Shown: positions 6,449-46,575 of the stretch, piece after piece | Position numbering within the stretch: the stretch's first letter is position 1 | How the letters are laid out: every line of letters begins with the position of its first letter | Assembly (NCBI RefSeq): GCF_964275005.1 | Contig: NC_092702.1 | Location: forward strand, 783,501 to 847,500 | DNA from: Diadema setosum | Taxonomy: Eukaryota > Echinodermata > Echinoidea > Diadematoida > Diadematidae | Direction: 5' to 3' | DNA: 64,000 nt | Notes under the pieces: model-generated | What the model saw: only the letters and a program-made list of their open reading frames with translations | What the model was told of the DNA's origin: nothing | Databases searched by the model: none | Program-made: the position numbers and the translations under genes

Positions 6449-6524
6449 AGTAGTATGATCATGTACCGGTAGACACCTTAAATCCTGTCGTTAACACGGG
6501 AGTCTATGGCAGGATTCAGGATCG

Positions 6525-6532
6525 TGACGTCA
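6525..6532. promoter_or_regulatory. TGACGTCA box, outer copy, element 1 left tip
   Basis: A perfect palindromic CRE/ATF-type octamer 76 bp from the tip. It belongs to an imperfect tandem duplication of about 50 bp (CCTG.CGTTAACACG...GTCTATGGCAGGAT) spanning roughly 6483-6582, which carries a second TGACGTCA at 6573-6580. The mirror copies lie at 21590-21597 and 21542-21549 in the right arm. Confidence 0.7.
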
Positions 6533-8451
6533 TCAGTCCTGCAGTTAACACGCGAGTCTATGGCAGGATCCATGACGTCATCAAGATGTCGATTGCGCAA
6601 TACCATCATCGATGGTGCAATAAACGTTTTTGTTCGATATTGTTTATAGAGGTTCTAATCGCGGAGCATGACGGATAAGCCTCATAGACAACAATAGGAG
6701 GAGGAAATTTTGAGGATCAGTCGTGGAAATTAATCAATACAAGATTCCATAGAGAACAAAATGAAGAGAAAAAGCAAAAAATATGTAGCAGACTCGTAGA
6801 ACTCTACATAATCAGTAAGCCCCCCCCCCCCCTTCTGAATTGTCTATGCAGTGGGTGGTTAATTATTATTATGTCTATTTTGCCCGTGCTAGGTTCGCTA
6901 ACTGAATGAGTTAAAAGGGGAATATCTCTCTTTTCCAATATAAACATGTGGGTAGTTTTAGTCTTGGAAATATGGGTTATGAATATTGCTTTATCTTAGG
7001 GCTCTACATAGAATTACATGTTGCTTCTTAGGAGTCTTGGCCGGTAATGTGATCTCTGTTGCTGCGTTGTTATTATGACGTTATATCGTTTTAGTTTTTG
7101 CCAAATGAATGAGGGAATTATTCTGCTTTCTTCCGTTTATTGCACGTTATTTTTTTTTTTTGTTTATTGGCCGTTTGATAATTTGACGCGATAGTAAAAA
7201 ACACTTCCATATCGACAGCAAAACTCCCACAGGTACCAAACGATGCGTCATTCAACGAAAATATTGGTCCTAGTGTGGGCTCTTTATTTCTCTGATAAGA
7301 TTCCTATTGTCGCATGATGCGTTTTTTTCGCTTAGAGCAATTATGCGCTCTTAATTTGAAATAGTAAAATGCGCTTTAATCCCCATCCCCCATTGTTGTT
7401 TTTCACGTGCTAAGATTTAGCTCTCAAATTACATGCTCTTTCCTATTTAATGAGAGGTTTGTCATTATGTCACTTAGGAATGTTACAAACATGAACCCCC
7501 ACCTCGACCAGTACTGTACAGTCCCTTTAAACTCTGTTGAGGCACGCAGGTCTACACAAGCAGCCACCAATTCTCTGTGATTGTCTACAACTTGAGCGTT
7601 ACGTACGACTGTACTCTGTTGGTATTATATCTCCAGTGACTGTATATCTCGCATATTATAGTTAACTAAATCAAGATTGCTATTGATAGTAACCGCTATA
7701 CTCATATTCCCAGTTGTACCTGCTGTTGCGTCTTTAGATTGATCATGATTACACAATTTGAATTCATGTTCAAGTGCACAGGTCGTGCTGCGTTTGATGT
7801 CCATGGTTTCATGGCAGAAAGATCATTCCATAAGGGATTCACAACTTCTGTGAAAACGGATTTTGCGGATGGCGTTGGTGAACATTAACACCTACACATC
7901 AGCTAACTATACTTGTCACGTATTAAAGCCTACTTCTTCAACATTTCCTCTGAAGATAATCTTCTATAGCGGTAGATCAAGTTCTGCGTTAAATAGGGTG
8001 GTTCTATGGTGTGTTTTCTTTTTGTCATACGCGAGCGTGCGCCCCTATTGTACACTGTAAACATGGTATTGTTTTCGATGTATATTGCCCAGTGACAAGA
8101 ATTTTCCCCACAAAGACAGAAACAACGATGAAAGGGGATGTCATTAGCTTCATCAGTCCTAACAAGGCGATCAGAAAACGTCACATTACAGTTGAGTAGT
8201 TTTTATACCTCTCAAACTTTGATATTACTTCGTAACTGTGTGAAAAACCTTGCTCGCATGACGTAACAACCGACCCCCGTCATTAATGTTGAGTCGTGTT
8301 TTTGAGGTGCAGAAGGCAACATGCGTGATTTCGAATAGACATTTCCTTGTGAAAAACAAATTAAATCTCAGGTTTTGTTTTCTTAGACAACAGTTACATA
8401 ATTGCTTTGTTCTTTTCTATCATAATAAATTCATGTTATGTCCATTAAGAA

Positions 8452-8454
<3 letters not shown>

Positions 8455-8504
<50 letters not shown>

Positions 8505-8515
8505 ATATATATATA
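8455..8515. repeat. (TA)n microsatellite in the left arm of element 1
   Basis: Almost pure TA dinucleotide run. The mirror tract in the right arm is at about 19518-19583 and differs in length. Confidence 0.9.
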
Positions 8516-8892
8516 TCCTCCATCCACAGAAACCTGCGATTCCAGTAATGTACTGTATGAATATATACTAGTAGTATATTGAATATATAGTATATTTATA
8601 TAACTGTATGACGCAAGATAAAAAAAAATGATAATGTATTGGAATATCGCATGACATCATTAAAAAGTGTCACGATATTGATGTTCAGAAAAAAGAAACC
8701 AACGACAGAAGAAGCGTTGAGTTACCCAGATTAATCAAGTTCATGTTGGAAGTGATATTATCGTTGTAACGCCAGTGTGTCGTTAGTACAAGATGGCGAC
8801 CTGATTTGTTCAATAATATACATTGACTCAACGCATGGAGCAAGAAAATCTTGTCAGTCACACTCAGGTTATCACGCTAGTTTCATGGTTTG

Positions 8893-11864
8893 CGTATGAT
8901 TGTAAATGTTACCAATCCGTGAAGGGGATTGTTATACAGGTATGTTTAATACACCAACTATACTGCTGATGAAGAAAAAAGTCTCCAACTGCACAGTCAC
9001 CAAGAAGACAATAGACACTCGATCGTAATTTGAGTTAAATTATGTAGTGGGACTGGATTTTGTTTGTTTGTTGTTTTTTAATCATCAATCGCACTTCATT
9101 TTTTATTTGTTCGTTTTATCACGTGACCGTCTGACACTTGTCTGTCGTTGAATATTCAAGCTATGTGCGCGAAAATCACACAACCTATAGCTGTCAGATA
9201 TCATTCTTCGTAAGGTCATTCGATTTTTTGCTTTATCACGTGACCGTTGACACCCACCGTCCTTCGTTGAATATGCTGTATAGGTATTGACCTACAACTG
9301 TACACAGGAGATTGGCGAGTACACGTACAAAAAATCAATCTCGATTGTTTTTCTTACAGTACGGTGTCAGTTCTATACATGGTGGAATATCATTAATTAA
9401 CTCATTCTACTATCTGAAATACAAACAGGTACTTTGTATAAGTTCCTCTTAGACTTTCGGCATATTCGTAACCCTTTGGTTTTCTACTCTTCGAGACGCG
9501 GGTCATGTCGGGTCAGGTTGAGACGATGTGAGTCATCTTCCTTGGCCCTCAGTGGACTGCGCAATCGCTCATAGATCTCTCTGCCCCGCCATCAATCGAT
9601 AAATCCGCACAAGACTTACAATCATTGCTCAAAAGACAGAAGATTTGGCATAACCACGCTCGACTGACTACATCTCCCGTGCAACACACACTTTGCGTGT
9701 TTAACCGACATTCTACCACGTTTACTCTGGAGGTCTCCCTCATCTCTTTGTCTCTCTTGCTTTCCTCTTCCACTCAGCCCACACAAAAAAGGAAGTCAAT
9801 ACATTATTACTATGTAATAACTGTTAAAACAGAGTACGGGTACTGACAACATATCACCAAGCATTGCTAGCAAGGAGACATGACAGAAAGAGACTATATA
9901 CAATGTACTTGATTCATAGGCCTATCGATATGTCATTCAATGTTGCCCGATAGGACCTATTTGGCACGTGAAAATGTGGGGTGTAACCAACTTTCAGGTT
10001 TCATAACGGATCATTTTACATTTTCTTTATACACAGTAAATATATTCCCTCACCCTGATTATTCGCGAGCTACACGTCTTTCGTCTACGAATTCTTCTAT
10101 ATTGGTGGATCTCTATAAGCAACCAGCCTGATAAAATGGTGATCCCGAACTATTTGTGATTTTTAGATGCTTGAAGGCTTAGTTCAAAGACAATGAATAG
10201 AAACCATCAGGTATAATTATATCCGTCCGTTAGATCATCCCGCAAAGTAAAACTAACCACCCTCTGAAAAGTAATCGCCACTTTTTTGCTTCACGACAGA
10301 ATCTTCGAAGTAGGTCATGCTATGTATTATGTTGAAATAATTGCTGGTAGATGTCAACCCTTGGTATAGTACACGGGTGGATGCGAGAGTCATCACTAAA
10401 GGCTGATCTGTATACAGTGCTGTCTGTGTAGCATTCCTCCAACAAATCAATACCATCTACACTAATCCCTGCATTCGAATTCCCCGCTTGTGTGTTCGCT
10501 CTTCGCGACGTTCTATTGTATCAATTTGCTTTGCATCGATCTCTTTAGGAGCCCTTGTGCTTACAGTTTGGTAGCTCCATGGTTACGGGTCTTCACTCTC
10601 TCACCCAACCCCTTCACCGGAACGGGGGACAGTTTACTCTCTCTTCTTGTCCGGACAAGTTTTGACAGGTAGTCCGTGATAGAACTCTCTTGGTAGCACT
10701 GAGTGAAGGAGATGCATAAATAGGAGTGGGGCTTCTTCGTCATTTTACTTTCAACCACTACACGCTGATACTATATATGTCGAACACCAAGACGTTTATA
10801 CTGGTAAGTCACATACGTTCGGGAATTTTTACATGCATTCTAACTTGCCTATCATGTACTGTGCTATAATTTTCAACGCTATTACGGCTGCACTCAATCA
10901 CAGGTCTGGTGGTTGTATGGGCGTAGCTAGATCCTGGTTGTCACGTGCCTAACATAACAGGTGACATGTATACTGATGTGCGCATACTTTCTCACCTTCG
11001 GGAGAAACATTTTATGGAATGCTAGAATTTAGTTATCGTTGTGTATGTACGTTTGTTAAGTGGATTAGGAGGCAACACCTCTGCATAATCATATCATTCA
11101 ACAGAACAAAGTATACTGGAAACCCGGAAATCTCTTTGTCTCATCAAAGTACATGTAGGCCTACATGAAGTAGCATAGAACACAAAATGGAACGTACGTA
11201 GAGTATGGTTCATTATGAAAGAGATGTAAATAAGACTGTTAAAAATACGAACGAGCACTAATAGATGGACGAAAATTTTATAAACAATTTGAGTACAGTT
11301 CGATGTTGTAGGGTGGGTTACCTTAATGGGTAGCTATATCTCCCCTGTTGTGTTACTGTTTTAACTTTATGTCAGTTTAAAAGTGCATCGTATGGTACGA
11401 GTACAACATTCGGACCTGATAGATATGAGCAGTCATTTCGACGATTGTTTTTGGATTTTTTTTTTGTTTTGTCATCCGAAATACAAGGTTTGATAAAAAT
11501 GTGTACGTCATTTTTCTTAACATGACCAAAGTGACACCTTGCAAAACACTGCAGAGATTTGATGATTTTGATGACGAAAACAAAGTAAATGCTTTGTTTC
11601 TAGTTATTGCTTGTTACATGTTGTTCTGACTGTGATGTTTTAGTAACTGTGAGAGGTGCGTGGTCGCCACAATTACTTGATTACACGCTGATATTTGGAG
11701 AAGGTATTGTCAGTGATTCTATGAATATTATATCATGGTGTACCACGCATGAGTACATATCACATACCCCGAAATATCGATTACCAACGAGTCTTGTGAC
11801 GACACGACTTATCCACCATTTCGTTATGTATCGCTTATGATATCACATTTTTTTTTCTCGTTAA
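8893..11864. other. Noncoding interior of element 1, left
   Basis: About 3 kb between the left arm and the promoter array. Only short, unsupported open frames occur. The one structure I see is a direct duplication of about 120 bp around 9115-9275, sharing TTATCACGTGACCG and CGTTGAATAT. No gene, RNA or further transposon is recognised. Confidence 0.6.
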
Positions 11865-12518: not shown

Positions 12519-12960
12519 ATGGAAAGTATGGAGCCAATGGAGCTGGACACAACGTTTGATTGTGATGTGTGTGAAGCTGTATTCACCACAAAATCAAATA
12601 TGTTACGTCATAAACGTATGTTCCACGGTCAACGGATATTGTACGTGTGCAACACTTGTGGGACCACTTTCACTCGGATGGATAACCTGAGACATCACGA
12701 GAAGAAGATGCATGCCATAACTACTCGAGGAGAGGATGAACAAAGATTCGACTGCTCCCATTGTAAAGCGAGATTCGTGACGAAAAAGCATTTAAACGAA
12801 CACATCAAGAGGATGCATCGTTCTTCGGATACATACTGTTGCCACATTTGCGGACAAGTGTTCGACCGGAAGAAGCCCTTTATGAGACACATCAAACATC
12901 ATCGAGTAAACATATCAACATCGACAAAATGTGTCAAGAGAGACGATCCCCTCGAAGAGG
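12519..12960 (+). CDS. Four-finger C2H2 exon of element 1 (exon 1 of the pPolB gene)
   Basis: Reads 147 full codons from an ATG in good Kozak context (GTTACCATGG), just after the last promoter module. The frame is open further upstream to 12126, but that part is the repeated module, so I chose this ATG. It encodes four C2H2 fingers: CDVC...HKRMFH, CNTC...HEKKMH, CSHC...HIKRMH and CHIC...HIKHH. Such fingers usually bind DNA, so recognition of the element's own arms or promoters is a reasonable inference. The exon ends at a strong donor (GAGG then GTAAGTAC) after 442 bp, leaving phase 1, which fits an acceptor at 14192. The same 442-bp exon length and phase occur in element 2, supporting splicing to the polymerase exon rather than a separate gene. 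Confidence 0.82.
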
Positions 12961-13364
12961 GTAAGTACTGGAAATGTGTTATCATTCATGTTAGTTATGA
13001 AGGAAAGGAAAAATAATAGGGTAAAGCAATGAAATCATCCGATATATGTACTTTCAGAAACCGAATCGATTGCGTGATTGTGCTATATGTAAGGTGACAG
13101 TGAATGAATATAAGAATATCAGTGGTAATACTGAAAATGATAATGACAGATGATATGGTACTCTTGATAATGTCATGAGACGAACAATTTCGTAATTTTT
13201 CACCCTGATGATGTCCTCATGCTGCACTAACTATGATACCCTTTCCGTAAAATTAAAAAGAAGAAATATATATCAGCGCCATTTAGGGACTGTAAGAGTG
13301 GTCTGTATGTACGTATACATCGTGCGAATTGTACATTGGTTTTATGTGCATTGCCATGCGCATA

Positions 13365-13400
13365 TTATTCTCTTGTTATATCGATATAACAAGAGAATAA
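13365..13400. repeat. 36-bp perfect palindrome
   Basis: TTATTCTCTTGTTATATC followed directly by its exact complement, centred on ATCGAT. It lies in the intron of element 1. A related AACAAGAGGACAATAT string recurs at about 13402 and 13841. Confidence 0.85.
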
Positions 13401-13455
13401 CATAACAAGAGGACAATATGTAATAATTGTAATAGTATAATTATGATAATATAAT

Positions 13456-13550
13456 GATAAATTCAATTCAATTCAATTTGATATAGGTTTATTGACAAAA
13501 AGAACATGCAGCTCAATAGCTGAACTTGTTCATTTTACAATTAAAATACA
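13456..13550 (-). mobile_element. Possible LINE or SINE 3'-end fragment
   Basis: On the minus strand the piece reads GTCAATAAACCTATATC followed by repeated ATTGA units. That is the usual look of a non-LTR 3' end with a short-repeat tail. The 5' limit is not visible and no coding part is present. Confidence 0.4.
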
Positions 13551-13562
13551 TATACGACATTG

Positions 13563-13601
<39 letters not shown>

Positions 13602-14192
13602 AATGTAGTTGAAATAGGGTATCAAAATGGATACTGAGTGAATATAACGGAAACACTGTTCAGGACCTGTACAAACAGACGAAACCTTCATATTTCAACC
13701 CGGTCTCAAATCCTTGACCTTGGGCCCCAGACCCAGAGATTACCAAGAAAGTCATCGACAAAAAAGTACATGCATTAAAAAAATGTATAAAAAATATATA
13801 CATATAAATATATTAAAAATATATAAAAATATGATATATAACAAGAGGACAATATTATGTTATTGTTCTTTCCATATGTATTTTTCAAGTAGTAGTATAA
13901 TAAGTATGTTTAAGTTAAATTTGTTACTTTACTGCTTTTTGTTTTGCATATAGTATACACAGAGTATGCAATGATTTTGTTTAGCCTATCTAATATTATT
14001 GAATGTCAATTATTACGCCACTTTTTATCTCTGGAAACATGTTTTGAGGGAACATTTTAATTATTTATTTTCGATTGTTTTGAAATTGTATACATGTACA
14101 GATATTTGAAAGGTCTAATATAATTGTATGATGATAATATTCGTATTATTAATTTCATTATTATTTGTTTTTTGGTATATCTTATTGATTAG

Positions 14193-17100
14193 GGAATTGC
14201 TTAGGGAGTGTTGGACCCTGCGAACTTCCCCAACATATCGATCCAGACGGATGTCTTGGAAGAATCTACAAGGAGCACTGGTGCCACATCAAAGACAGAC
14301 AGTCTGTTGGAAGAGTCTACCGCTGGTACAATTTTCATCTGCCTGCTCTGAACAATGACGTGCTGAGAGAGAAAGCCGTGGCAGTGTTCAACCTTCAATC
14401 TACAGCATTCAAAATCAACGCATCCTATGGATTTGTTTTATTCAATAATGAAACGAACGAATGTAGGCATTATTATGCCAGTAGAAACACAAAATTGTTT
14501 GACGCACCTTTCCTCGTTAGAGATACAACCTCGTTTCGGAAATTCACGGATGTTTTCTTGGGTGAAGATGCATTGGAATATGCGCGTTCCCTTCGCCCAG
14601 ATTCTAAATGGGTGGTTCAGCATATCACCAATGTAACGTTTTACATCTCGCGCCTTACAGATCATCCTATTGGAAAGAGCGTAGATCTCCCCTCGTATAT
14701 AAGTCAGAACAAAGCCATCGTTTCACTGTCAAAAAATCAAAACAGTGGGCATTCCTACGACGATAACTTGTGTCTTTTTAGATGTATCGCACTGGCAAAA
14801 GGTTGTGATAGTAAGTCACTAGAAAAGATGAGCAAGGCATTGTTCGTCCGGTATTGTCAAGATACTCCAGTGCAGGAATTTAAGGGGGTCAAATTGAGCG
14901 AGCTCCATAAGATCGAGGAATTATTTCAGGTCAATGTCGTTGTTTATGAATTACACCCTGTACATCCCACTGAAGAATGTGATGAGGATGATGGAGAAAT
15001 AGATCAGGTCACGGCGACGCTTGTTCGACGTAGTATGGACAAATATGACAATACCATGTTTGTTAATCTCTATGGCAACCATTTCAGCTATATCACAGAT
15101 ATTGAGCGCTACTGTCAGAGTTACCAGTGTCGAAAATGTAGCAAACTGTGGAAAACAAGGAGAAGTTTGCTCCGCCACGAAACAACTTGCAATGCTTCGG
15201 GAACTTCGTTCAGCTTTCCCAAAGGTATGTCTACGTTTCACAATCCTCCAACCATCTGGGAGGAATTGGCGGATGAGAGAATCGACGCCGATGAAAGTCG
15301 GAGATTCTTCCCTTTCTTCGCGACATTCGATATGGAATGTTATCTTGAAAGAGTGGAGAGCAAACCAGACATACCGACGGGTAAACTCCAATACACCAGC
15401 AGGCATATCCCCATGAGCGTAAGTGTAAATTCAAACGTGCCCGGGTATGAGGAGCCTTTTTGTCTTGTGTCTGACGGAGATCCACAAAAATTGATCGATG
15501 ATATGGTCACGTATCTATTAGAAGTAAGTCAAAGCTCACTGTCTCAACTGAAGTCTGATTACGCAGATATCATCGAGATGTTGGAAGAAAAGACGACGAA
15601 ACTAACAAAACAACTTGAGAGTGAGATGGATGACCAAAAAGCTAAAAAACCTACACATCTCATCAAACTGAAAGATAAATTTGAAAACTATTTGTCCGAA
15701 CTACCCGTGGTTGGCTTCAATTCCGGTAGATACGATATCAACGCGATTAAACAGTATCTCTACCCCGCTCTCTTGCAAAAAGACCCGGTCAATTATGTCA
15801 TCAAAAGGAATCATAACCACATGGCTCTTAAGACTGGCAATCTCCAATTTCTTGATATTACAAATTTTCTCGCTCCGGGCTTCTCGTACGCCGCATTTCT
15901 CAAAGCCTATGACTGTGAGGAGAGTAAGGGTTACTTTCCTCACGGTTGGGTTGATTCACTCGACAAACTAGAAGAACGTCAGCTACCACCAATAGAGGCC
16001 TTCCAAGATAATCTTAACGGTAAACAGTTTTCCTATGAACAGTACTTGCACTGCCAGAGTGTTTGGAAGAACAATAACATGACGTGTCTCAAGGACTACC
16101 TTATATGGTATAATAATTTAGATGTTACACCTTTCATCGAAGCGATCGAGAAAATGCGTGCCTTCTATCGAGGTCTGACAATCGACCTATTTAAAGATGG
16201 CATTTCGGTTCCTGGTCTTACCATGAAATATCTTATGAAGTGTAGCCCAGACGCCCACTTCAGTCTCATTTCTGACAAAGACAAAGACCTCTACTATACC
16301 TTTCGAGATAATCTAGTTGGAGGACCCTCCATCATCTTCCACCGTTACCACGAACGTGGTGTAACCCAAATTCGTGGAGGTAAGTTTTGTCAAAAAGTGA
16401 TTGGTTTCGATGCCAATGCCCTCTATCTTTGGGCGATAATGCAACATATGCCGACGGGACAATATTCTAGACGAAAACTGGAGAACAATTTTAAGTCAGA
16501 ATCCAAACATCCCATTGCCCAAGAGTGGTTGCAGTACGAAGCGCATCGCCGAGGCATTCACATACGCCATGCCGGGAACAACACAGAGAAAAGACTAGGC
16601 CCCCTTCAATTGCCAGTAGATGGATTCTGCTCCAAAACTAAACAAATCTTCGAATTTAACGGATGTTACTTTCACGGTCATCCCTGTCATCTGACAAAGG
16701 GTCAAACACAAAACCAGAAACTGGGGAAATCAATGAATGATTTGTTAAAGAAAACCGAAGAAAAGCGGAGATATATCGAAAGTCTAGGTTATGAATGCGT
16801 CTCCATCTGGGAGTGTGAGTATCGAGATAGGCGCAAAATTGATCCTGAACTCAGTGCGTTCCTCTCCGAAAACTTCCCCTCTCCCAAGTTCCGTCGTGGA
16901 ATGACTCAAGATCAAATTTTAACCGCCATTACAAACGGAACACTCTTTGGCTTTGTACAGTGCGATATCCATGTCCCTGAAAAGCTTAAGCAGTCCTTTT
17001 CAGAGATGTGTCCTATCTTCAAGAATGTCAATATTTGCAGAGAGGACATTGGAGACCTCATGCAATCGTACGCTAACGAGCACGGAATCATGAATACTCC

Positions 17101-18073
17101 TCGTCGCAGTCTGATCGGGAGTATGTTTGGTGAAAACATACTGTTGTATACCCCTCTGCTGCGATGGTATCTCAGTCATGGTTTGGTGGTTACGAAAATC
17201 TATCAGTTTGTCGAGTTTGAATCCAAGGCGTGTTTTAGAGATTTTGGTGAGAAAGTGTCTGACGCACGGCGAGCTGGAGACCTAGATCCTTCAAAGAAAA
17301 TCATCGCGGATACGATGAAATTGATCGGAAACTCATCGTATGGCAAGACAATTACAAACAAACTGAAGCATCGAAACGTCAAAATCTGCGATGAAAACAA
17401 AGCTGAGAGGTACATTAACAACATTCTTTATCGAGACTTGAATCCGATAGGGGAAGACTGTTACGAAGTCGACTTAGCAAAACAGAAAATAAAACTAGAT
17501 CTTCCCGTGCAAATTGGCCACGCTGTGTACCAGTTGGCAAAACTACGCATGCTCCAATTCTATTATGACTTTCTTCTAAAATATATTGACCCATCGGACT
17601 TCCAGCTGTGTGAGATGGATACCGATTCAGCTTATATGGCTATTTCTGGCGACTCCATAGACAACATTGTCAAACCACACATGCGACAGGAATATGAAGC
17701 TGACAAATGCAATTGGTTCCCGAGAAACGACACACCAGAAGTAGCCAGGCATGATAAGCGTACTCCTGGGTTATTCAAAGTTGAGTGGGAGGGTGATGGA
17801 ATCGTGGCACTTTGTAGTAAGACCTACTACTGCTTCGGTGCAACTGATAAATTCAGCTGCAAGGGAGTCAGTAAGAAACAGAATGTTATTACCAAAGATG
17901 TGTACCTGGAGGTTCTGAGATCTAGAAGAGCATCTGGTGGTGTGAATACCGGTTTTCGTGTCGTTGACAATGGTATCTCCACCTACTCCCAGGCCAGAAA
18001 TTCCTTCTCCTATTTCTACCCGAAACGAAAGGTGCTCGAAGATAATGTTTCTACGACCTACCTGGATATCTAA
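14193..18073 (+). CDS. OTU-like / protein-primed family B DNA polymerase / Vsr-like nuclease (exon 2, element 1)
   Basis: Replicative polymerase of the element. The frame is open from the acceptor at 14192; the first ATG is not its start. Counting from the GTG at 14360 as residue 1 (1,237 residues): an N-terminal domain of unknown role; an OTU-like region (DDNLCLF, C138; NHFSYI, H241); a C2HC finger (C257, C260, H273, C277); exonuclease motifs ExoI FDMECYL (D324, E326), ExoII GFNSGRYD (N454, D459) and ExoIII YNNLD (584-588); polymerase motif A GFDANALY (D684); a Vsr-like nuclease at about 750-825 (VDGF D754, FEFNGCYFHG, SIWECE); motif B NSSYG (991-995); motif C DTDS (1087-1090); and KTY (1154-1156). 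All catalytic motifs are present and the frame is intact. Known pPolBs copy linear DNA from a terminal protein. The cysteine-protease activity is inferred from a few residues only. Confidence 0.9.
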
Positions 18074-19518: not shown

Positions 19519-19585
<67 letters not shown>

Positions 19586-21673: not shown

Positions 21674-21679
21674 GGCATG
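21674..21679. repeat. 6-bp target site duplication, right of element 1
   Basis: GGCATG, identical to 6443-6448, followed by CTGCCGTT, the expected satellite continuation. Confidence 0.92.
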
Positions 21680-23617: not shown

Positions 23618-23690
23618 GGTAGTATATCTATGTACCCGTTCGACCCACGGTGGAGCCGGTGGAGCCGGTGGAGCCGGTGGAGCTCCACCT

Positions 23691-30597: not shown

Positions 30598-30640
<43 letters not shown>

Positions 30641-34751: not shown

Positions 34752-34862
34752 CTGAAAATTAAGTACATTAATTGGTACACAGTATTTGTTTGTTAAATTG
34801 AAGCCTCATATACTGTACGTGTACACTGTAGCACATATATCGCGGCATTACGCTTTAAATAG

Positions 34863-34918
<56 letters not shown>

Positions 34919-35884
34919 CTGGAAAGGAAATACATGTACGTATATTTTTCGGTTTAAATTGAGTTAAGAAGTTAATATTGTGCGCCTACAATTCACTCTT
35001 CATTGATTCAACTATAAACTTGAATGGATCTGTGTTAAACAACTATGAACGAAACAGCAAGTAAAAACATTACAATGATGCATGTAACCATGCTTTAAAA
35101 AAAACCAACAATGCAAGGTCTACTGTTATTTCAATTATTTTATTCATTACTTTTGTATTGTTGTTACGATCTGAAGTCACACTCAAGCATGTGTGTTGTC
35201 TCTTACTGATCACCACGCTACAAAGAAGTCTCTGCTTTCTCTTTGTTTTTACTTTAAACCAAGTGAGAACTGACGAGGTTTTGTAAGAAACAAACTCATT
35301 AAACTAATTTTATCGTGAAAGTGTATACTAGATGACATTTATAGACATGTAACATTCATGGAGCATTCTATGTTTCAACGTTGAAAGACATTTTGATAGT
35401 ATTACATGAATCTTAGCGAAATTCTGGCTATAAGAGACATGAATATCGCGTCAGTACATTTTGAAGGAACTGAAAGATTCTAGAAAAAAAATAACACACA
35501 CAATCACACACACACACAATACCATACACACATCAATGAACGCTAAAATAAAATATTGACATGCGATGTTAATTACACTTATTCAATGTACAAAAGAAAA
35601 AATATATACTGTATATCTAGATATATTTTACGCCGATCTCTGATGTTGGTAGCTTCGGCTCTATTCACATAATATAGAGATATTCATTTTTTTTTTAAAT
35701 CCGTGCTGACTGATACTCATATCGATATCACACGGTGGGAATATAAAACAAACTTAATAAGTATTTGAAATTCATTTGTTATCGATGTGACGGCAAAATT
35801 CAAAATCTATTTGAACAGATTTGTATAGCTTCTTTATTACCCCTTCATCACAGTCATTGTTTTAAGTTTAATGATTATACTTAC
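34752..35884 (-). other. Phase-1 intron of the element 2 gene
   Basis: 1,133 bp from donor GTAAGTATAATC (read on the minus strand at 35884) to acceptor TTTTCAG at 34752. It contains a (TA)n run at about 34866-34914. Size, position and phase match the intron of element 1. Confidence 0.7.
34866..34914. repeat. (TA)n microsatellite in intron
   Basis: Pure AT dinucleotide run. The intron of element 1 also has one, near 13566-13600. Confidence 0.9.
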
Positions 35885-36326
35885 TTTTTGCTTGGTTTCC
35901 TTGTTGTTCAAGTGCTCGCTTTTTGGGTGTTTTTTGAAGAGTCCGGGGTCGGTGGGACTCCAGATGTTTCATAAATTTCTCACGTTGATAATATGTCCGT
36001 CCACACGTATGACACAAAAAGGTTTCTTTCAGGCGATGCGTTTTCACGTGTTCATCAAGATGCTTCTGTTCTATGAATTGTGCATCACACTGTGAGCAAG
36101 TTAGACGCTGGTCTTCACCATTTGTTTTCACGTTATTCGGATCTTGGTGGGTTTTCATGTGTCGTTTGAGACTATCTGGCCGACTGAAACCTTTTCCACA
36201 CAAATCACACACGTGCAATACTCTCTGTCCTTGATGATATACACGATGGTGGCGCAACAAATTCTTTTTCTCCGTGAAATCTGCGCTGCAAAACTCACAA
36301 CTAAATCTGCGACAGTCGTCTTCCAT
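35885..36326 (-). CDS. Four-finger C2H2 exon of element 2 (exon 1 of the pPolB gene)
   Basis: Starts at an ATG in an ideal Kozak context (GCCACCATGG). The 442-bp exon gives 147 full codons with four C2H2 fingers: CEFC...HHRVYH, CDLC...HMKTH, CSQC...HVKTH and CHTC...HLESH, then a basic tail (KTPKKRALEQQ). Finger spacing and linkers follow the element 1 exon, including the GEDQRL/GEDEQRF linker before finger 3. It ends at a GTAAGT donor in phase 1, which matches the polymerase exon acceptor. Read without splicing it would stop a few codons into the intron. Likely the DNA-recognition module of the element protein; the recognised site is unknown, with the GTGGAGC repeats the first candidate. Confidence 0.82.
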
Positions 36327-36720: not shown

Positions 36721-37499
36721 TCATGCACGCTCAAGTAAAATACTTGAAGTTGTGAATACACAAAAACTTTTTCACAACAATTTTGCGAGCTTCACTTAAC
36801 TGTCTTACATTTAAACACTGTCGAATTAATGCAAAGCTTAATATACAAGGATTATTGAAGCGGAAACTGTAATACAACCTGAATTAAACGCACGTTAGAA
36901 AAAACAAATGGTCGGTAAGCAAAGCTATCATAAGCCAGAGATCTATCGCAGGAAAAAACACAACTTAGCAGAAAAAAAAAAGTGAAAAAAACCCCTCTCA
37001 GAACATGTATCCCAACGCACAAGTATAGCAACTAAAATTGCTTACGCATAAAACACAAATGAATGCGAGAAATGCAAATACATTCTCATTCGCGAACAAA
37101 ATCATTCTTCATGCTGTCGTGCACGATGTAAACGTCAGCAAAATTAAATGGAGAAAACGGGCTAATGTTCAAGAAAAAAAAATTCTTCGTTTTCGGCACA
37201 GTATAAACCGACCAAACTACAAAAAACACGAAATGAAAATAGCCACCTCTTAACAAAAATCTCGACTACAAATAAATGCCTCAATCCCATGCTTTTGTCG
37301 GAAAATATAACGACAGTTATCTATCTGATATCATAACTCGATAATAACAGACATGTATAATCATCTCTACTGCTTATTCAGCTTGGTACGATACAATGAT
37401 GAATTCCCTCAAGCTCTAGTGTTTTGTTCTGTTTTGCTCTATTTTTTGTTTTGTTTTTTGCTTTTATTGTATTGAAGATCAGAGGAAAATTCAATTACA

Positions 37500-37980
37500 A
37501 CGTCGCAGTAAAAATTGCTCGCTCTGAATATCTGTCGACATTGCAAGCGATATGCTCCACAGCCACCAAAAGCCGAGTGAACGTGAACTCGAGTAAAGGA
37601 AATTCAAATCCCCCGCCCCACTTCATGGAGATGATTTCTGGCACCAGCTTGCTTGCTTACTGTGAATATCTATGGGAAATGCGAGCGATACGCTCAACAC
37701 CCTTGTAAAGGCCGAATGAACCTGAGGTCGAGTAAAGGAAGTTTTAAATTTCCCGCCCCACTCCATAGAGACCAGTCATTTCCTACGGGTTACGTAATAC
37801 CATCGACTTAACTGGCCACTGTACCAAAGATGCCACTGCGTTTAATGCGCACAGGGCACTTTCAAACCTTCGCCTTTATTGGTTGCACAAGCTTGCACAA
37901 TCAAAGGTTGATCAAAACACGCGTCATTATCAAAAATTACTGGTAGTCTACTTCACGTGTGGTGTTCGCGTTCAATTTAG
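37500..37980 (-). promoter_or_regulatory. Inward-facing promoter-like modules, right arm of element 2
   Basis: Mirror of the left-arm modules, with GC boxes near 37611-37619 and 37752-37759. They read on the minus strand, the same direction as the zinc-finger/polymerase gene that starts 1.2 kb downstream, so they could serve as distal promoters. Confidence 0.55.
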
Positions 37981-38151
37981 TTCTATTACGTAATACTCGT
38001 ATAAGTCTTCAGAGGTTAGCATTTCCCAGGTGTTTAAGGCAGTGAAGTCAAGTAATGAAATTCAAAGTAGGTAAAAATTCCAAGCAGTCCCAGTTGGCTA
38101 TAAATACCCGTGTCAGTGAGCAGCAAGCATCTTTTTCAAGTGTGACGGCAG
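37981..38151 (+). repeat. DIRS left inverted terminal repeat
   Basis: Matches the complement of 44890-45085 from CAGAGGTTAGCATTTCC inward to GCAAGCATCTTTTTC. It contains a TATA box (GGCTATAAATACC near 38077-38089). Confidence 0.8.
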
Positions 38152-38492
38152 TGAATTATACCAGGGAGGTGAGACACCTCCCTGATTATACATCTCAAAC
38201 TCCAATGTCTAGTGATCGGGAAGACGACGCTACCTCTCAGCCCCCATCCCCGCGGGGAGATCAGGGCATGGAAGGCCGCCTTGAAGCTCAACTAGAGAAA
38301 CCTTTCATCTATCCGAGATACTCTCCCGCTTCATGGATAGGGCGGCGGCACACCGTTGTAATGACAAACGGCATGCGAGCCATGCCCGCTGGTGCAGGAG
38401 AGCTCCTCCTCCCGGCGACTAGTCCGGACATGCGAGCCATGTCCGCGGGGACAGGGGCGCTGCCCCGCCCATCGAAGACTTCAGCGAGCTAG
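38055..38492 (+). pseudogene. Gag-like first reading frame of the DIRS fossil
   Basis: A frame of 145 codons beginning with an ATG inside the left terminal repeat, just after the TATA box, where DIRS elements start their first (gag-like) gene. Composition is proline- and serine-rich (SQPPSPRGDQ) with no firm domain. I treat it as a remnant of the fossil element. Confidence 0.5.
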
Positions 38493-39529
38493 CCAACCCC
38501 ATCGGCAGCTCATCAGACGACGATATACTCATGTCAGCCTCCTTCCCGGCAAAACTGATTACGTTGCCCTGTATGGGTGGCCTTGACTCTGCCCTTGTGG
38601 TTATGGTCATTTTGACAACCGAATTGATCCGGATGCCATGCCCTACAGCCAAACTCTTTCAAAGCCTGGTACCCAATTTAATATTAACTTAAATTCTGAT
38701 CTCATTTGGGCCAAATTTAAAAACTGGCTGATTTGGTAATGAAGGCAGTCACACTGCCACATCAGAAGGTAAGTCTCTAAAAAATCGCGAAGCAAATGCT
38801 CAATTGCCATCGACTGCCCAAGCAGTTCTCACACCAAAAATCGAGAGCAAATTGGGCGATCCTCCTTCACGAGGACTTGGGTCTTGTGAGCTCCCAACTT
38901 CTACAACAAAATGTAGTGAAGGGACTTCTACCGCATGTAAATCCTTTCTGAAATTCACAGATCATGCACGGATAATCATCCATGCAACTGACACAACGAG
39001 AATTAAACAACTCATGTCACCATCGATGGCCTGACAGTCCCGGGCTTTGCTTATCGTATGATCTGAGCATGCACCATCGAGGTATCTTGAAACCCCTTCT
39101 CAACCCTTCTCAACAACACTTGCGCAGCAAGTCGATTCCACTTGATAGAAAGTTGTTCAGAAAGACATCTGAGAAAAATTGACAAGTGTCACATAAGTAT
39201 ACATCGTGGGTCATGAATGTCTCTACGCAAGCCAGCAAAATGAAAAAAAAAAAAAAAGGATGAGTACTGTCCAAAACCGTTCATTGCTGGAAATCTCAAG
39301 CTTTCAAAAGATGACTGGTCAAAATAATTCCTGATTCTTGGATATTGGCCACAATATTTGGCTATGAAACCAATACACGTAGTTTCATTTCAACCCCATA
39401 CCAATAAATTTTTCCTGTACAAAGTGTACATTCTACCGAGGAGGAAAAGGTAACCCATGAAGAATTATCTCTGAAGATTCTCGCAAAGCAAGCTATTAGA
39501 GAGATTCCTCACATGGAGTATCAACTCTA

Positions 39530-41140
39530 ACCTAGCGCTACCAAAGACTGGCGGTCTAAGTCCAATCATAAATTTGAAAAACAAATTTGTAAGATTCGAA
39601 CACTTCAGAGTGGAACAGTTTCGCGTGATTAAGGCTTTAATTTTGCCCCTCCAAAGGGTGCATATTTATCGGTATCCGTTCACCTTGTTCACCAAGCAAA
39701 GTCTTTCGAATGGAAATAGTATTTTACCGCATTCTTTCAGTGCCTTCTATCTGGCCTTAATTCGACCCCACAGATTTTCCTTAAAGTTATGAAACCTGTC
39801 TTTGCCTCGGTGAGGAGTAGTGGCATTAGAACAATCACCTATTTCGGGGATATCCATTCTCCTTCTTACACCAGAGAAGAGTGTCTTGACAAAGCCAATT
39901 TTATGATCAACTTGTTGTCACCCATAAAGAGTTTCAGTAAGGATTTCGACAAATCCAGTTTCAACCCAAAGCACGTCGAGACCTCCCTTGGTTCTCATAT
40001 TAATTCCCAGCAAATGATTTTCAATTTTCCTCAGAACAAGATTGACAAGGTTACTGCCCTTGGAAATTCAATCTTGTATGGCAACGTAACCAAATATCGG
40101 GATTTTAATACCTTCCTCAAAGAAATTTACATTCTCATCACTTGTGACTAGAAAAAATAAATCAACTAATGCTCTGCGTAAAGCAGAAGAAGACTTTGAC
40201 ACAAAGTTTGGTTTCATTACCTAGTCATGCAATACAAAACATTCTTTGGTGGTGGCTGTCTCGCAAGACAAAGAATTATTTTCCACCTTCATGAGCATGA
40301 TAATTTCAAGGGATGCTAGCATCTCAGTATGGAGAGTAGTTAATTCTGAACAATGACAATTCCTTTGCTCATAGAGTCTGGAGTGCCAAACAGAATTCCC
40401 CGCATAGCAATGTGTGCGAACCTCTTGCAATTCAGAACGGTCTTGAAGCCCTGTGTGGCTCGTGTACAAAAAAAAAAAAAAAAAATGTGCTTATTCATAA
40501 TCCGGTCAGACATTTCTACAGCTGGTAGCATACCTGACCCGAACGAATTCACAGCCAACATTGGAATTGGTGTCTAGCAATCGGATATCAGCTTCACATT
40601 CAACAGATGTAGATGATTCTGAAGCTTTCTGCTTGTTTCGCAGAGACATGAACAGCTAATTACTATGCATGTTTTTTTCACCACATAATCCACAAACTCT
40701 ACGGTAGATTAGCAGTGACGCTGACGTTGCATCTCGGTTCCCCTGACCACCAGTTCGCTCCTCATGTCAAATGGAAGCCAAGTTTTATTGCCCTGAATTT
40801 TGAGGCCTTTTTTCCTTACCCTAGAACATTCAACTGAACAAGGTGACCTGAGCAATCCTCACTGCCCCAATGGTGGCGGCAGCCATGGGTCTCAGTATTG
40901 CTCGAAATGCGAATAGCCCCACCCCTATTACTCCGCGAGAAATTCTTGCCCCACACCCTCACCCACCGACTAGCCTCCAGCTAGCCGCCTGCATGGGTGC
41001 TCTCTGCTAGCGATGACAAGTGACAGACACATCGCAGCACGCTGCAAAGTTCCTTTCATCATCATGGCGAGACAATACCAATAAACAAAACAGATGAGGG
41101 TGCTTGAAGACAATAGCAATGATTGTATTCTGAACAATCT
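39530..41140 (+). repeat. 1,611-bp tandem duplication, copy 1
   Basis: Directly followed by copy 2 at 41141-42751 with no spacer. All compared lines and the long frames inside are identical, including a poly-A run of the same length (near 40467). It contains the reverse-transcriptase-like stretch of the DIRS fossil. Confidence 0.9.
39574..40151 (+). pseudogene. Reverse-transcriptase remnant of the DIRS fossil, copy 1
   Basis: Stretches such as FASVRSSGIRTITY, TREECLDKANF and QNKIDKV are typical of the RT of DIRS/Ngaro-type retrotransposons in style and order. The region is broken and is listed only as a fossil. The same remnant recurs in copy 2. Confidence 0.65.
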
Positions 41141-42751
41141 ACCTAGCGCTACCAAAGACTGGCGGTCTAAGTCCAATCATAAATTTGAAAAACAAATTTG
41201 TAAGATTCGAACACTTCAGAGTGGAACAGTTTCGCGTGATTAAGGCTTTAATTTTGCCCCTCCAAAGGGTGCATATTTATCGGTATCCGTTCACCTTGTT
41301 CACCAAGCAAAGTCTTTCGAATGGAAATAGTATTTTACCGCATTCTTTCAGTGCCTTCTATCTGGCCTTAATTCGACCCCACAGATTTTCCTTAAAGTTA
41401 TGAAACCTGTCTTTGCCTCGGTGAGGAGTAGTGGCATTAGAACAATCACCTATTTCGGGGATATCCATTCTCCTTCTTACACCAGAGAAGAGTGTCTTGA
41501 CAAAGCCAATTTTATGATCAACTTGTTGTCACCCATAAAGAGTTTCAGTAAGGATTTCGACAAATCCAGTTTCAACCCAAAGCACGTCGAGACCTCCCTT
41601 GGTTCTCATATTAATTCCCAGCAAATGATTTTCAATTTTCCTCAGAACAAGATTGACAAGGTTACTGCCCTTGGAAATTCAATCTTGTATGGCAACGTAA
41701 CCAAATATCGGGATTTTAATACCTTCCTCAAAGAAATTTACATTCTCATCACTTGTGACTAGAAAAAATAAATCAACTAATGCTCTGCGTAAAGCAGAAG
41801 AAGACTTTGACACAAAGTTTGGTTTCATTACCTAGTCATGCAATACAAAACATTCTTTGGTGGTGGCTGTCTCGCAAGACAAAGAATTATTTTCCACCTT
41901 CATGAGCATGATAATTTCAAGGGATGCTAGCATCTCAGTATGGAGAGTAGTTAATTCTGAACAATGACAATTCCTTTGCTCATAGAGTCTGGAGTGCCAA
42001 ACAGAATTCCCCGCATAGCAATGTGTGCGAACCTCTTGCAATTCAGAACGGTCTTGAAGCCCTGTGTGGCTCGTGTACAAAAAAAAAAAAAAAAAATGTG
42101 CTTATTCATAATCCGGTCAGACATTTCTACAGCTGGTAGCATACCTGACCCGAACGAATTCACAGCCAACATTGGAATTGGTGTCTAGCAATCGGATATC
42201 AGCTTCACATTCAACAGATGTAGATGATTCTGAAGCTTTCTGCTTGTTTCGCAGAGACATGAACAGCTAATTACTATGCATGTTTTTTTCACCACATAAT
42301 CCACAAACTCTACGGTAGATTAGCAGTGACGCTGACGTTGCATCTCGGTTCCCCTGACCACCAGTTCGCTCCTCATGTCAAATGGAAGCCAAGTTTTATT
42401 GCCCTGAATTTTGAGGCCTTTTTTCCTTACCCTAGAACATTCAACTGAACAAGGTGACCTGAGCAATCCTCACTGCCCCAATGGTGGCGGCAGCCATGGG
42501 TCTCAGTATTGCTCGAAATGCGAATAGCCCCACCCCTATTACTCCGCGAGAAATTCTTGCCCCACACCCTCACCCACCGACTAGCCTCCAGCTAGCCGCC
42601 TGCATGGGTGCTCTCTGCTAGCGATGACAAGTGACAGACACATCGCAGCACGCTGCAAAGTTCCTTTCATCATCATGGCGAGACAATACCAATAAACAAA
42701 ACAGATGAGGGTGCTTGAAGACAATAGCAATGATTGTATTCTGAACAATCT
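41141..42751 (+). repeat. 1,611-bp tandem duplication, copy 2
   Basis: Second copy, offset by exactly 1,611 bp from copy 1. After it, unique DIRS-fossil sequence resumes (TCGTGATCC). Confidence 0.9.
41185..41762 (+). pseudogene. Reverse-transcriptase remnant of the DIRS fossil, copy 2
   Basis: Identical to the remnant at 39574-40151 as part of the tandem duplication. Confidence 0.65.
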
Positions 42752-44493
42752 CGTGATCCTTTTTATCCCATCTACAGAACACTTCAACTTTAAGCCTACA
42801 GCATAGCTTTTCAATAAAGCCCACTCCACGATTAACTCATAGACCTGCTCGGTCTTCCATTCTACCTGAAGCCGAGAGTTATGACATAGGCAAACAGCCC
42901 CTATAGTCAGACTTATGAAGGGCGTATCTAACTCCGACCCTCGCAAGCCTAAATACAACAAGACTTGGGATGTTTCAATTGTTTTGAATCACTTTTTATC
43001 GTTTCAAGATACCTATGAACTATAGATTCCTTCAGTGCCTTGAGCCAAAAACAATTTTCCTTACTCGCACTCGTTTCGGCAAAACGTACACAAATGCTGA
43101 GACATCTAGTTCTTATGACATTACCGGAAGACGAGGCCACGTTTGCACATAGAGATATGAAAGGTATATCTCTAACCAGGTAATTAAAGCGCCTTCTCTT
43201 TAATACCTCCAATCCTAAACTTTGTGTTCCGATCAACTCTTCACGAGTATATTAAATGCACAGAACACCTCCAACGAGCAAGTTCAGAAAGCAAAGCCAT
43301 AACTTCTTCAAAACACCCCAACAAATCGGTGACGACAAGCATCTTGGAGCGGAGACTGAAAGCCAGTCCTTCGCAGCTGCTTGTATAAACACTTAAAATA
43401 TAAATAATAATACTGTCAGTGGCTACGTATACATCCTTGTACACTGTACTGACTGCTGCACACAAATTATGTATGTATTGTCGCTATGGGAACATGTACC
43501 TAGTTTGTACTGTCTTCGAGATCAGTATGAAAGGGTACCACAGGCCGTACCTCGTGTTCACATACATAAGGATTTGGGAGCACAGTCATCCCGCGTTCAT
43601 CCCAGACTCTCAAGGATGCCAATATGAAAGGGGTACCACATTCTCTGCTCATAGCTACAGAGGCACCGCAACTTCTAAACTTTTGCACATTGAGTATAAA
43701 GGTCTTAACGAAATCTTGTCCACAACTGACTAGACGAACGCTGATACATTTTGAACCTTCTACAATGTATCTTCTAACAATTGATTCCACATTAGTTCAA
43801 CAATTCTCAGCTCTGCTGAGTTAGAAAGAGACATGTAAATTGTGATAATATGTGTATACCTGTAGGTATATCAGTATCTCAATATTAAGAACAATGTCCT
43901 AATACGAGTCAGATAAGACACAAGACCATTTATAAATCACGTTACGTTGTGCCTTGGAAAATGGCAACACATTACTCGGCCACTCGTTTAGGAGATTCGG
44001 TCCACCAAACTGATGAATTTAAACTCTGATATCGACCCAAAATGGCAATGGAGTTGCCTCTAATCATTGCTGCAATATTACTTTGCCGAGCATGAACTGG
44101 TTAATGTCCAATTCTTCCTTCAAATGTACACGAATTATGAACATGATTATGATTATGTCTTGATTGGAAAATCGGTACAAGAGGTCCATTGTATTTGATT
44201 TGTCTGTGCGCTATCATGCTTAATCCTGCTCCAGTTAAAGCACGCAAGGTATCAAAATGATATCATACTCAATTCTATGCCTTGCACCTTATACTAATAG
44301 GTTCTCAAGCAAACTTTGCTTGAGTTCTTCTCCTGTTTGCGACAATGTGTGTCACCATCGATAGACACCCTCTACGCATGAGGTGTCATGACTAAAGTTT
44401 CAACCTTGTTGTGAAAACTGTCCATCATCCTTCTTGTCCTCTTGCCCTCACTCATGACTGTCACTAGACTGACTTCTGTACGGAACTTTGAAC
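42752..44493. other. Degraded interior of the DIRS fossil
   Basis: About 1.7 kb between the duplication and the internal complementary region. A tyrosine recombinase gene would be expected in the family; I cannot recognise one here. No other feature seen. Confidence 0.45.
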
Positions 44494-44610
44494 ATGCTAA
44501 CCTCTGAAGACTTATACGAGTATTACGTAATAGAATTCCTAAATTATACAAGTAATAAGAAGTATAATTAGAATTCTATTAGTAATAATGAAGTATAAGT
44601 CGAAGAGGTT
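44494..44610. repeat. DIRS internal complementary region
   Basis: The first half (ATGCTAACCTCTGAAGAC to GTAATAGAA) is the complement of the left end at 37981-38020. The second half (TTCCTAAATTATAC to GTCGAAGAGGTT) is the complement of the right end at about 45012-45085. The two halves meet through a shared AATT, as expected from a circular intermediate. This is diagnostic of DIRS-type elements. Confidence 0.85.
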
Positions 44611-44889
44611 CCCACCCAGCATCTCATTTAATCGATACTCTTCAGTTCTGAACCCTCCCTTTCCAACACTGTACAGAAGTCAAAACTGCTGGGCCCTACT
44701 GTATGCTGATGTTCTGCTTATCAATTGCTTGACATGAGATGTCCATACGTATAGTATGCTCCATACCTTTGGAACAGCAATGGTTGTGCTTTATTTATTG
44801 CTTGTCTGTATGAGAAGAACCAGTTAGCTAATTGTCTGCATTGCACCCAATACTGGTGTTGCTGGTCTGTCTAAAGCCGTATTCTCTTT

Positions 44890-45085
44890 GAAAAGATGCT
44901 TGCTGCTCACTGACACGGGTATTTATAGCCAACTGGGACTGCTTGGAATTTTTACCTACTTTGAATTTCATTATGTGACTTCACTGCCTTAAACACCTGG
45001 GAAATGCTAACCTCTTCGACTTATACTTCATTATTACTAATAGAATTCTAATTATACTTCTTATTACTTGTATAATTTAGGAATT
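44890..45085 (-). repeat. DIRS right inverted terminal repeat
   Basis: Complement of the left repeat plus a distinct outer extension (GACTTATACTTCATTATTAC to TTTAGGAATT). Differing outer extensions at the two ends are usual in DIRS elements. Confidence 0.8.
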
Positions 45086-46512
45086 ATGTCATTGTCACGC
45101 ATAATCGAGTGAAATACTGGATAAAGTCATGGATTCACATCCAACAACATGCGAACTATGTGAAAATACTGAATATTATAGTCTTCGATTCAAGTGATGC
45201 GCTGATGAGCTAAGATTTTGTTTGTGTAGCGAATAGAGTGAACTGTATATAATTTTTGCTTACCAAAGCAAGTCATATTATTTTAATAACAACAACAACA
45301 AATGGATCCGTTTGTATAGATAATTGGTTTGTAATTTGAATATTATGTATATCGCATGCGTTGAGGAGTTGCATTCCTGTTGCTCATAGAGTAAACTGTA
45401 CATAATTTTTGCTTACCAAAGCAGTTTATATCATTATAAAAACAACAACAACTGGGTTCGTTTGTAAACACTTGGTTTGTTATTTGAATAGCTATACATG
45501 TATATCGCGTACGTCTATGAATCGGTTGACACGATTATCATTTTTTTTTCTTTCTTTATTCGTGTATGTAGCCTGCCTATTTCTAACGCAAAAGATTCGA
45601 GGCATTTAAAACTTCTTAGTATATTGTTATTCATTTAGGCTACATCATGACCCGTTATCCCCTCATAAACTTCAAAAATTTATGTATGCGACGTATCCTA
45701 TCCATTCTACAATATGAACGGGCAATAATGAAGATCTTTTTGCTGCACGATAATATACGAGGCTCCACGCTACAATTTCGTTGAAAGCTGAGTGACACGT
45801 TCACAAATAAAATCGTCACTACAGCTCATTCGTTTAGCTCCGCAGAGCGCTTACCCTTTCTAAAAAACAAAACAACAAAAAAAAATCCACATCTCCGACA
45901 CCTTGTCAAAGTTCATACACACTCACCTTCCAAGATAAAAAAGTCAACAACAACAACAAAAGTAGCGCTCCACATCTCGTGGTCGCATCGCTTGGCCAGG
46001 CTCCACGCAACCAACATTCGCGTTCATGGTACGCTGATTTACATATTTGCGAATAAATAATGAACGAGACTTTTAACCTCATGCATATTCTTTAGGCTCC
46101 ACACAACGCCTTTCCTCAAAAAAAAAGAAAAAAAAATAAAACAAACAAACAAATGTCACATCGTTCGCCATATGCAAGGCTCCACGCTTAGATTCACATT
46201 CGTGGCAAGCTGATTTACATAGTCGAGAATTAATCAACATACGACATCATCGAACTCGTACATATTCACACACAAAAAAGAAAAGATTCTGACAGGTCCA
46301 CAACACCGTCAAGCTTTCATAATTATCACAACATCACTAACCTCGTACATATTCACAAAGACAGGCCCTGACAGCTCCACAACACCATCAACCATTCATA
46401 ATCTTATCTAAAGGATGGGCTCATTTCCCCCTTATTAACGCTATCTAATCCTACCAGCAAATAATGACATCATACATATCATGTGTGATGCCATCTTATG
46501 CATATTCAATTA

Positions 46513-46520
46513 TGACGTCA
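46513..46520. promoter_or_regulatory. TGACGTCA box, element 2 right tip
   Basis: Mirror of 23691-23698. Confidence 0.7.
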
Positions 46521-46575
46521 AGGTGGAGCTCCACCGGCTCCACCGTGGGTCGAACGGGTACATAGATATACTACT

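Follow-up and report, generated by a model that had tools for sequence, protein, structure and literature searches.

Polymerase-only relatives of Polintons in the genome of Diadema setosum, with integration probably borrowed from full Polintons

In our study, a 64,000-nucleotide stretch of the Diadema setosum genome (hereafter the window; C18:783501-847500 of the 912.7-Mb host genome) was found to contain two DNA elements. Each has one recognisable gene, in which C2H2 fingers are predicted to be spliced to a protein-primed family B polymerase (pPolB) with vOTU, exonuclease, Vsr and palm parts. We consider it rather likely that these elements are polymerase-only relatives of Polintons, which replicate themselves and are integrated in trans by the Polinton integrase of the same genome. 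They look like stable, recently active lineages, and their integration probably borrows the integrase of full Polintons in that genome. The polymerase gene was the only coding sequence found conserved between the families of the element, and within two families (B and C) it was the only clearly constrained one. Outside help is indicated, since a canonical Polinton has the same tip and duplication length and has a subterminal site in common with family D.

A genome search with exon 2 of the polymerase gene yielded at least 43 polymerase matches, which were merged to at least 27 loci where the gap was under 9 kb; the 27 loci are a lower bound because the best 36 of 112 candidates were scored. 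The polymerase spanned at least 1000 residues without a stop in 14 of the 43 matches. Seven more elements besides elements 1 and 2 were read whole, together with a short C8 element, and at least four diverged families were recognised in the genome. Family A contained element 1 and C18:764965-780515 (one insertion, copied with the tandem array around it), family B contained element 2 and C1, family C contained C13, C22 and two elements on C4 (C4a and C4b), and family D contained C3, whose protein was 54% identical to that of element 1. Only about 2.2-2.7 kb of DNA could be aligned pairwise among families A, B and C. When the open reading frames (ORFs) were compared between families by tblastn (seven family pairs plus element 1 against element 2), the polymerase gene was recovered, along with short matches in the arms and two weak ones in antisense. 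The arms of families C and D had 217 bp in common at 88%, in opposite orientation. The read elements of families A-C measured 14,991-15,551 bp, and element 2 measured 22,958 bp with its inserts; its extra length over its relative C1 is due to two arm inserts that C1 does not have. The family D element was 16,273 bp long, with arms of about 4.8-5.1 kb and about 6.4 kb between them, of which about two thirds was the polymerase frame.

Over a stretch of 7.2 kb, C13 and C4b were separated by 4 mismatches plus 4 gap openings, and such near-identity shows recent movement. The C8 element (C8:3493698-3497845) was 4148 bp long and contained the arms and tips of family C and a perfect ACTTCT duplication, without a polymerase; unless the gene was deleted after insertion, this points to a supply in trans among members of the group. 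At C12:147379-178516, in an element with family C tips, a second tip pair (151454-164902) was apparently inserted in the polymerase frame, and the polymerase matches there end at 151454 and restart at 164898. Scans of viral contigs and genome contigs for relatives of the families outside this genome gave none, a negative that carries little weight because the control scan with canonical pPolB was likewise empty.

The original prediction had described two elements with a single multidomain pPolB gene each and with neither integrase nor capsid, and this description held: none was found by Pfam on 20 ORFs (75-148 aa) of elements 1 and 2, nor by tblastn. The control was the canonical Polinton C6:21716624-21734443, which contained a PF03175 polymerase, a Pox_A32-type ATPase, an adenoviral-type protease and an rve-chromo integrase, and had 0.4-kb arms, the tip AGTAGTAT and the duplication CATGTA. 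Two further C6 frames without a Pfam match are taken by us as the major and minor capsid, judging by where they lie and by their length. The C6 integrase, protease, ATPase and minor capsid had no tblastn match in nine family copies (C3 minus its last 3 kb); the only C6 protein part that matched them was the Vsr part of the polymerase.

A Polinton-type integrase was found within 10 kb of 0 of the 27 family loci versus 13 of the 20 PF03175 loci outside the families (Fisher p 5.5e-7), and the counts for a capsid match were the same (0/27 versus 13/20). The frequency of integrase and capsid genes at related loci had been named as the check on the idea; among the candidates scored, neither gave a match at this distance from the 27 family loci. 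For comparison, every PF03175 locus that was not a family match was used (20 loci, several of them fragments), and 15 had an integrase or capsid match within 10 kb. One canonical integrase was the query of the integrase search, in which the best 109 of 1031 candidates were scored; 31 of these, with 41-100% identity, were assigned to the Polinton type, and 78 were classed as retroelement-like. The distance count used 26 of the 31; the remaining five adjoin these and belong to loci that were already included. No retroelement-like match lay within 10 kb of a family locus, the nearest being at 15.2 kb. All 35 candidates of the capsid search were scored. At the family locus C11:25357258 an integrase match lay 13.7 kb away and a capsid match 10.8 kb away, and the adjacent canonical pPolB (C11:25366660) was nearer to both. 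Elements were also defined by their tips: 35 tip matches, paired by orientation and spacing, gave 13 pairs, to which element 2 was added, and 8 remained unpaired. The polymerase was present in 13 of these 14 elements, and an integrase or capsid match in 0 of 14.

The long arms and 6-bp target duplications that had been claimed for the two elements were confirmed, with perfect GGCATG and AGCATA duplications, kilobase arms and an empty site for each element (Table 1). A tandem array with a unit of about 3.15 kb makes up nearly the whole window outside the two elements and 54417-57476, so that unoccupied paralogous sites were available. The arms of element 1 were about 2.4-2.5 kb long, with an identity of 97.1% over 2055 aligned columns and 95.0% over 419 columns. 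The claimed tips were found at three ends as AGTAGTAT and failed at the left end of element 2, which is GGTAGTAT. The 19-base tip pattern AGTAGTATNNNNATGTACC (at most 1 mismatch) had exactly 4 matches in the window, which are the four element ends, and had a match in 0 of 100 shuffles; AGTAGTAT by itself was unspecific (7 occurrences in the window versus 2.15 expected). Perfect 6-bp duplications were present in 9 of 9 independent insertions with both flanks read, C8 included. The copy C18:764965-780515 was counted among the 27 loci and the 14 tip-defined elements and was excluded from the independent insertions, because it has the same flank, the same hexamer and 99% identity to element 1.

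Table 1. Positions in the window of the two elements, their parts and their empty sites
Feature	Position	Strand	Remarks
Element 1	6449-21673		perfect GGCATG duplication at both sides
Left 6-bp target duplication, element 1	6443..6448		GGCATG
Right 6-bp target duplication, element 1	21674..21679		GGCATG
Left inverted arm, element 1	6449..8897	+	tip AGTAGTATGATCATGTACC
Right inverted arm, element 1	19136..21673	-	
Exon 1, element 1	12519..12960	+	four C2H2 fingers; donor AGG/GTAAGT, phase 1
Predicted phase-1 intron, element 1	12961..14192	+	GTAAGT...AG
Exon 2, element 1	14193..18073	+	N-terminal (presumed terminal-protein) region, vOTU, C2HC finger, exonuclease, palm and Vsr module; open frame of 1294 aa from 14189
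Empty paralogous site for element 1	3298..3303		one GGCATG, in tandem array
Element 2	23618-46575		perfect AGCATA duplication at both sides
Left 6-bp target duplication, element 2	23612..23617		AGCATA
Right 6-bp target duplication, element 2	46576..46581		AGCATA
Left inverted arm, element 2	23618..28567	+	tip GGTAGTAT; contains insert 25277-26571, not in relative C1
Right inverted arm, element 2	36939..46575	-	split by insert 37983-45083, not in relative C1
Exon 1, element 2	35885..36326	-	four C2H2 fingers
Predicted phase-1 intron, element 2	34752..35884	-	
Exon 2, element 2	30835..34751	-	open frame of 1307 aa, 30835-34758
Empty paralogous site for element 2	5238..5243		one AGCATA, in tandem array

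The substitution pattern separates the polymerase from the other ORFs. Between families, the proportion of synonymous differences (pS) was 0.85-0.89, at which synonymous sites are saturated, and that of nonsynonymous differences (pN) was 0.18-0.35. Within families the pN/pS of the polymerase was 0.23 for C1 against element 2 (family B, 1294 codons) and 0.17 for C4b against C4a (family C, 1338 codons), with no stops in either; the ratio of nonsynonymous to synonymous substitution rates (dN/dS) from codon alignment was 0.26 and 0.17, respectively. Among the other ORFs of at least 60 aa, a set in which the arms enter twice and ORFs overlap, the median pN/pS was 0.92 in family B (n=28), with 14 of 28 stopped in the other copy, and 0.70 in family C (n=31), with 21 of 31 stopped. 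Individual ORFs of this set reached values as low as 0.27-0.32, with few changes each. The finger exon had a pN/pS of 0.71 in family B; in family C, where the other copy contains one stop, it was 0.23. The pN/pS ratio for C4a against C22 was 2.1, from very few changes.

The exon-2 frames of elements 1 and 2 (1294 and 1307 aa) were 70% identical, and their polymerases are homologues; the two families can therefore not be counted as independent reductions, as had been proposed. In each of families A, B and C, the phase-1 intron is predicted from a GTAAGT donor and an AG acceptor. In family D the fingers and polymerase were found in a single open frame of 1402 aa, which supports the view that they form one protein. 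The order of parts that had been read from the two elements (four C2H2 fingers, OTU-like region, C2HC finger and Vsr) was recovered by motifs, whose names are presumed. In element 1 the vOTU motifs were located at 191-196 (D..C) and 298 (H), followed by the C2HC finger at 314, exonuclease motifs I, II and III at 380, 509 and 640, palm motif A at 739, the Vsr core at 821, and motifs B and C at 1044 and 1144. The core residues of the vOTU, exonuclease, palm, Vsr and C2HC motifs were invariant across five aligned polymerase copies, and the Vsr module was matched by the solved Vsr endonucleases 1odg, 1vsr and 1cw0. The N-terminal region is presumed to be the terminal-protein region from its position and the literature (PMC11071308). 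Structure prediction of the two polymerase halves from a two-sequence alignment gave unusable models (mean predicted local distance difference test scores of 42.2 and 29.7). PF03175 was over cut-off in element 2 and other family copies in a six-frame genome search, and was not listed in a plain hmmscan of both polymerase frames; the exonuclease-to-Vsr part matched the canonical C6 pPolB with a profile match probability of 97.3. No helicase family was found in the polymerase frames of elements 1 and 2 at E up to 0.1. A 226-bp tandem repeat of 2.4 copies (11865-12421) lies upstream of the start codon of the element 1 gene, partly in the same open frame.

The polymerases of the families and of the canonical C6 Polinton could be aligned by BLAST only in the Vsr module, at 31-35% identity. 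In C6 the Vsr module lies ahead of the YxGG motif and motif A, whereas in families A and D it was found after motif A. The long PF03175 matches of the families had no break between profile positions 15 and about 307 (by calculation, up to the Vsr module), and the canonical matches having both parts break near profile position 200. The module was thus gained twice or moved, because it occupies two positions in the palm. A deletion derivative of a resident canonical Polinton was considered as the source of the elements, and the divergent polymerase and differing place of Vsr rule against it, as judged from one whole canonical copy (C6). Apart from short weak matches, the arms of the families and of C6 had in common only a 24-bp subterminal site in family D. 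The 14-mer ACAATAGAATATGA of this site lies 50 bp from the tip in the C6 arms, 49 bp from it in one C8 canonical arm and 56 bp from it in the family D arms, and was found nowhere else in the 357,772 bases examined, some of which were counted twice. Family D and C6 have 24 exact bases in common there, whereas 2000 Markov simulations reached at most 14.

We infer the steps of priming, processing and integration in trans as follows. The one spliced gene would give a finger-bearing pPolB, and the fingers would bind the element. The terminal-protein region would prime synthesis at the repeated AGT tip by slide-back on the trinucleotide repeat. Trinucleotide-repeat tips suit slide-back priming, as in protein-primed replicons. 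The vOTU protease would free the primer protein, and the linear element would be copied through strand displacement by the exonuclease and palm. Canonical Polintons of the same genome would provide, in trans, the Polinton-type rve integrase that inserts the copy with a 6-bp duplication.

Several observations weigh against reading the elements as polymerase-only Polinton relatives that are integrated in this way. The tip in common with the canonical Polinton may mean descent rather than present use, and the subterminal site is confined to family D, while families A, B and C, each with its own arms, do not have it. In C8 the canonical tip, from one arm, was AGTAGTAAG rather than AGTAGTAT, and no AGTAGT was found in the 1.5-kb stretch expected to contain the C9 canonical tip. 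Seven of the 20 other PF03175 loci were also without an integrase match within 10 kb, and a very divergent integrase could escape a one-query search in which the best 109 of 1031 candidates were scored. The polymerase frame of C1 diverges from the others near the C terminus, and element 1 was not among the PF03175 matches of the six-frame search. A 75-aa frame downstream of the element 1 gene (18246-18470, plus strand) had a Pox_A32 match at E 0.2 and 11.6 bits versus a cut-off of 22.8, possibly a relic of a Polinton ATPase or a chance match.

The elements might also be packaged satellites, using the integrase and the virions of canonical Polintons alike. We hold this to be unlikely. The genome does contain canonical Polintons in which the integrase, capsid, protease and ATPase frames are open, and capsid-bearing and capsid-less Polintons are described as a continuity in the accessible text of PMC4028283.

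It is distinctly doubtful that the elements are self-sufficient one-protein transposons, in which the polymerase, through its relocated Vsr-like nuclease and the terminal protein, integrates the element without any integrase. An integrase of their own was not found in the copies examined, the Vsr core residues were invariant in the five aligned polymerases, and the place of the module differs from the canonical one. However, 6-bp duplications and AGT tips are typical of Polintons with an rve integrase, C6 has both, and canonical Polintons have the Vsr module despite an integrase of their own. The original prediction had taken the elements to be complete and not decayed. Its second half is supported by recurrence in at least four families, by the polymerase in 13 of 14 tip-defined elements, by near-identical copies and by constraint, whereas self-sufficiency is not, given the canonical tip and duplication length.

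Ordinary decay, by which canonical Polintons would have lost most of their genes by chance, is more doubtful again. Degraded Polinton pieces do occur in the genome, such as a C24 palindrome with a broken integrase, partial integrase and capsid matches are also present, and element 1 has the sub-threshold Pox_A32 match given above. The tip-defined elements are also unequal: 8 of the 14 measure 14,984-15,551 bp, and the other six 4,148, 10,577, 13,449, 19,696, 22,958 and 31,138 bp, partly due to inserts. Against decay stand the open frames, the purifying selection and the recent copies, as well as a polymerase that is unlike that of C6 and has Vsr at another place. Least probable of all is an unrecognised, very divergent integrase or other transposase, for which element 1 would have about 4.7 kb of interior outside the gene, but beyond the gene the comparison of families gave nothing more than short matches in the arms or weak ones in antisense, the other ORFs were not clearly constrained, and family D has little room between its arms beside the polymerase frame.

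Polymerase-only elements integrated in trans, the reading we prefer, are most similar in make-up to group I Polintons/Mavericks, with which they have in common AGTAGT tips, 6-bp duplications, inverted arms and a protein-primed polymerase that contains vOTU motifs. A Vsr-like module is present as well, at another place in the palm. In contrast, no integrase, capsid or protease was detected in the elements, and no ATPase above cut-off. Their arms are 2.4 to about 5 kb long, compared with 0.4 kb in C6; Vsr follows motif A, whereas in C6 it lies upstream of palm motif A; N-terminal C2H2 fingers are present, which were not found in the canonical C6 frame; and the gene is spliced, by prediction, in families A-C. 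The vOTU, Vsr, terminal-protein region and capsid-less Polintons are already known. In the text available to us, the vOTU is reported for Polinton pPolBs (PMC11071308) and a Vsr-like insertion is a mark of group I Mavericks (PMC10328495), so that these two parts are not new. Vertebrate Mavericks are described, in the part of the source seen, as having (AGT)2 ends most often and 6-bp duplications (PMC8097293). Nine of 72 Polintons are listed without the major capsid protein, protease and ATPase in the accessible part of PMC4028283; the virion module is absent there as it is here, and in our elements the integrase is absent too. Linear plasmids and transpovirons likewise have a replication module without a virion module, and a loss of the structural module is ascribed to transpovirons, in the portion of PMC11071308 at hand; the copies found here are, unlike them, chromosomal and have 6-bp duplications. 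The pPolB-helicase of the transpoviron Tlr1-like type differs as well, since the polymerase frames of elements 1 and 2 gave no match to a helicase domain. In Entamoeba histolytica, according to the sections available, Polinton-derived B2 polymerases are present, no Polinton integrase, protease or ATPase was found, and the authors suspect assembly error or gene loss (PMC3511435). These pPolB genes likewise stand in a genome without a detected Polinton integrase; element ends and mobility are not described for them in the same partial text. An integrase-less, polymerase-only lineage was not found in the literature as covered by titles and abstract openings, without Repbase and most subscription papers.

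Many eukaryotic DNA viruses and linear plasmids have been proposed to stem from Polintons. If true, a polymerase-only branch that is long-lived and recently mobile would be to chromosomes what transpovirons and linear plasmids are outside them, a replicator that retained its replicase and outsourced integration. Trans action of a Polinton integrase would become directly testable, and the elements would form a natural test of the end sequences that the integrase needs. The two positions of Vsr suggest that the nuclease entered protein-primed polymerases, or moved within them, more than once.

Among the canonical Polintons and their derivatives, a canonical-type pPolB frame of 1297 aa was found 71 kb past the window (C18:919166-920665), with no integrase or capsid match nearby. 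The palindromic derivative C24:30800501-30812416 contained 5.5-kb arms that are 99.5% alike, a broken integrase in each and the tip AGTAGTCT, and a similar inverted pair of integrase pieces was present at C13:2856371-2865748.

The tandem array occupies 1-6448, 21674-23617, 46576-54417 and 57476-64000 of the window; its longer matches are 88-99% alike, and no Rfam match and no tRNA match were found in it. Element 1 was duplicated along with a stretch of this array, which gave the copy at C18:764965-780515. The 7.1-kb right-arm insert of element 2 (37983-45083) has an inverted pair of about 160 bp close to its ends and, further inside, a tandem duplication of 1.6 kb, and five of its ORFs gave nothing over cut-off against Pfam. 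The left-arm insert contained two tRNA-Thr (GGT) genes, at 26049-26123 and 26315-26389, within a duplicated 266-bp stretch. The stretch that breaks the array (54417-57476) contained an open frame of 605 aa with RVT_1 on the minus strand (55577-57394).

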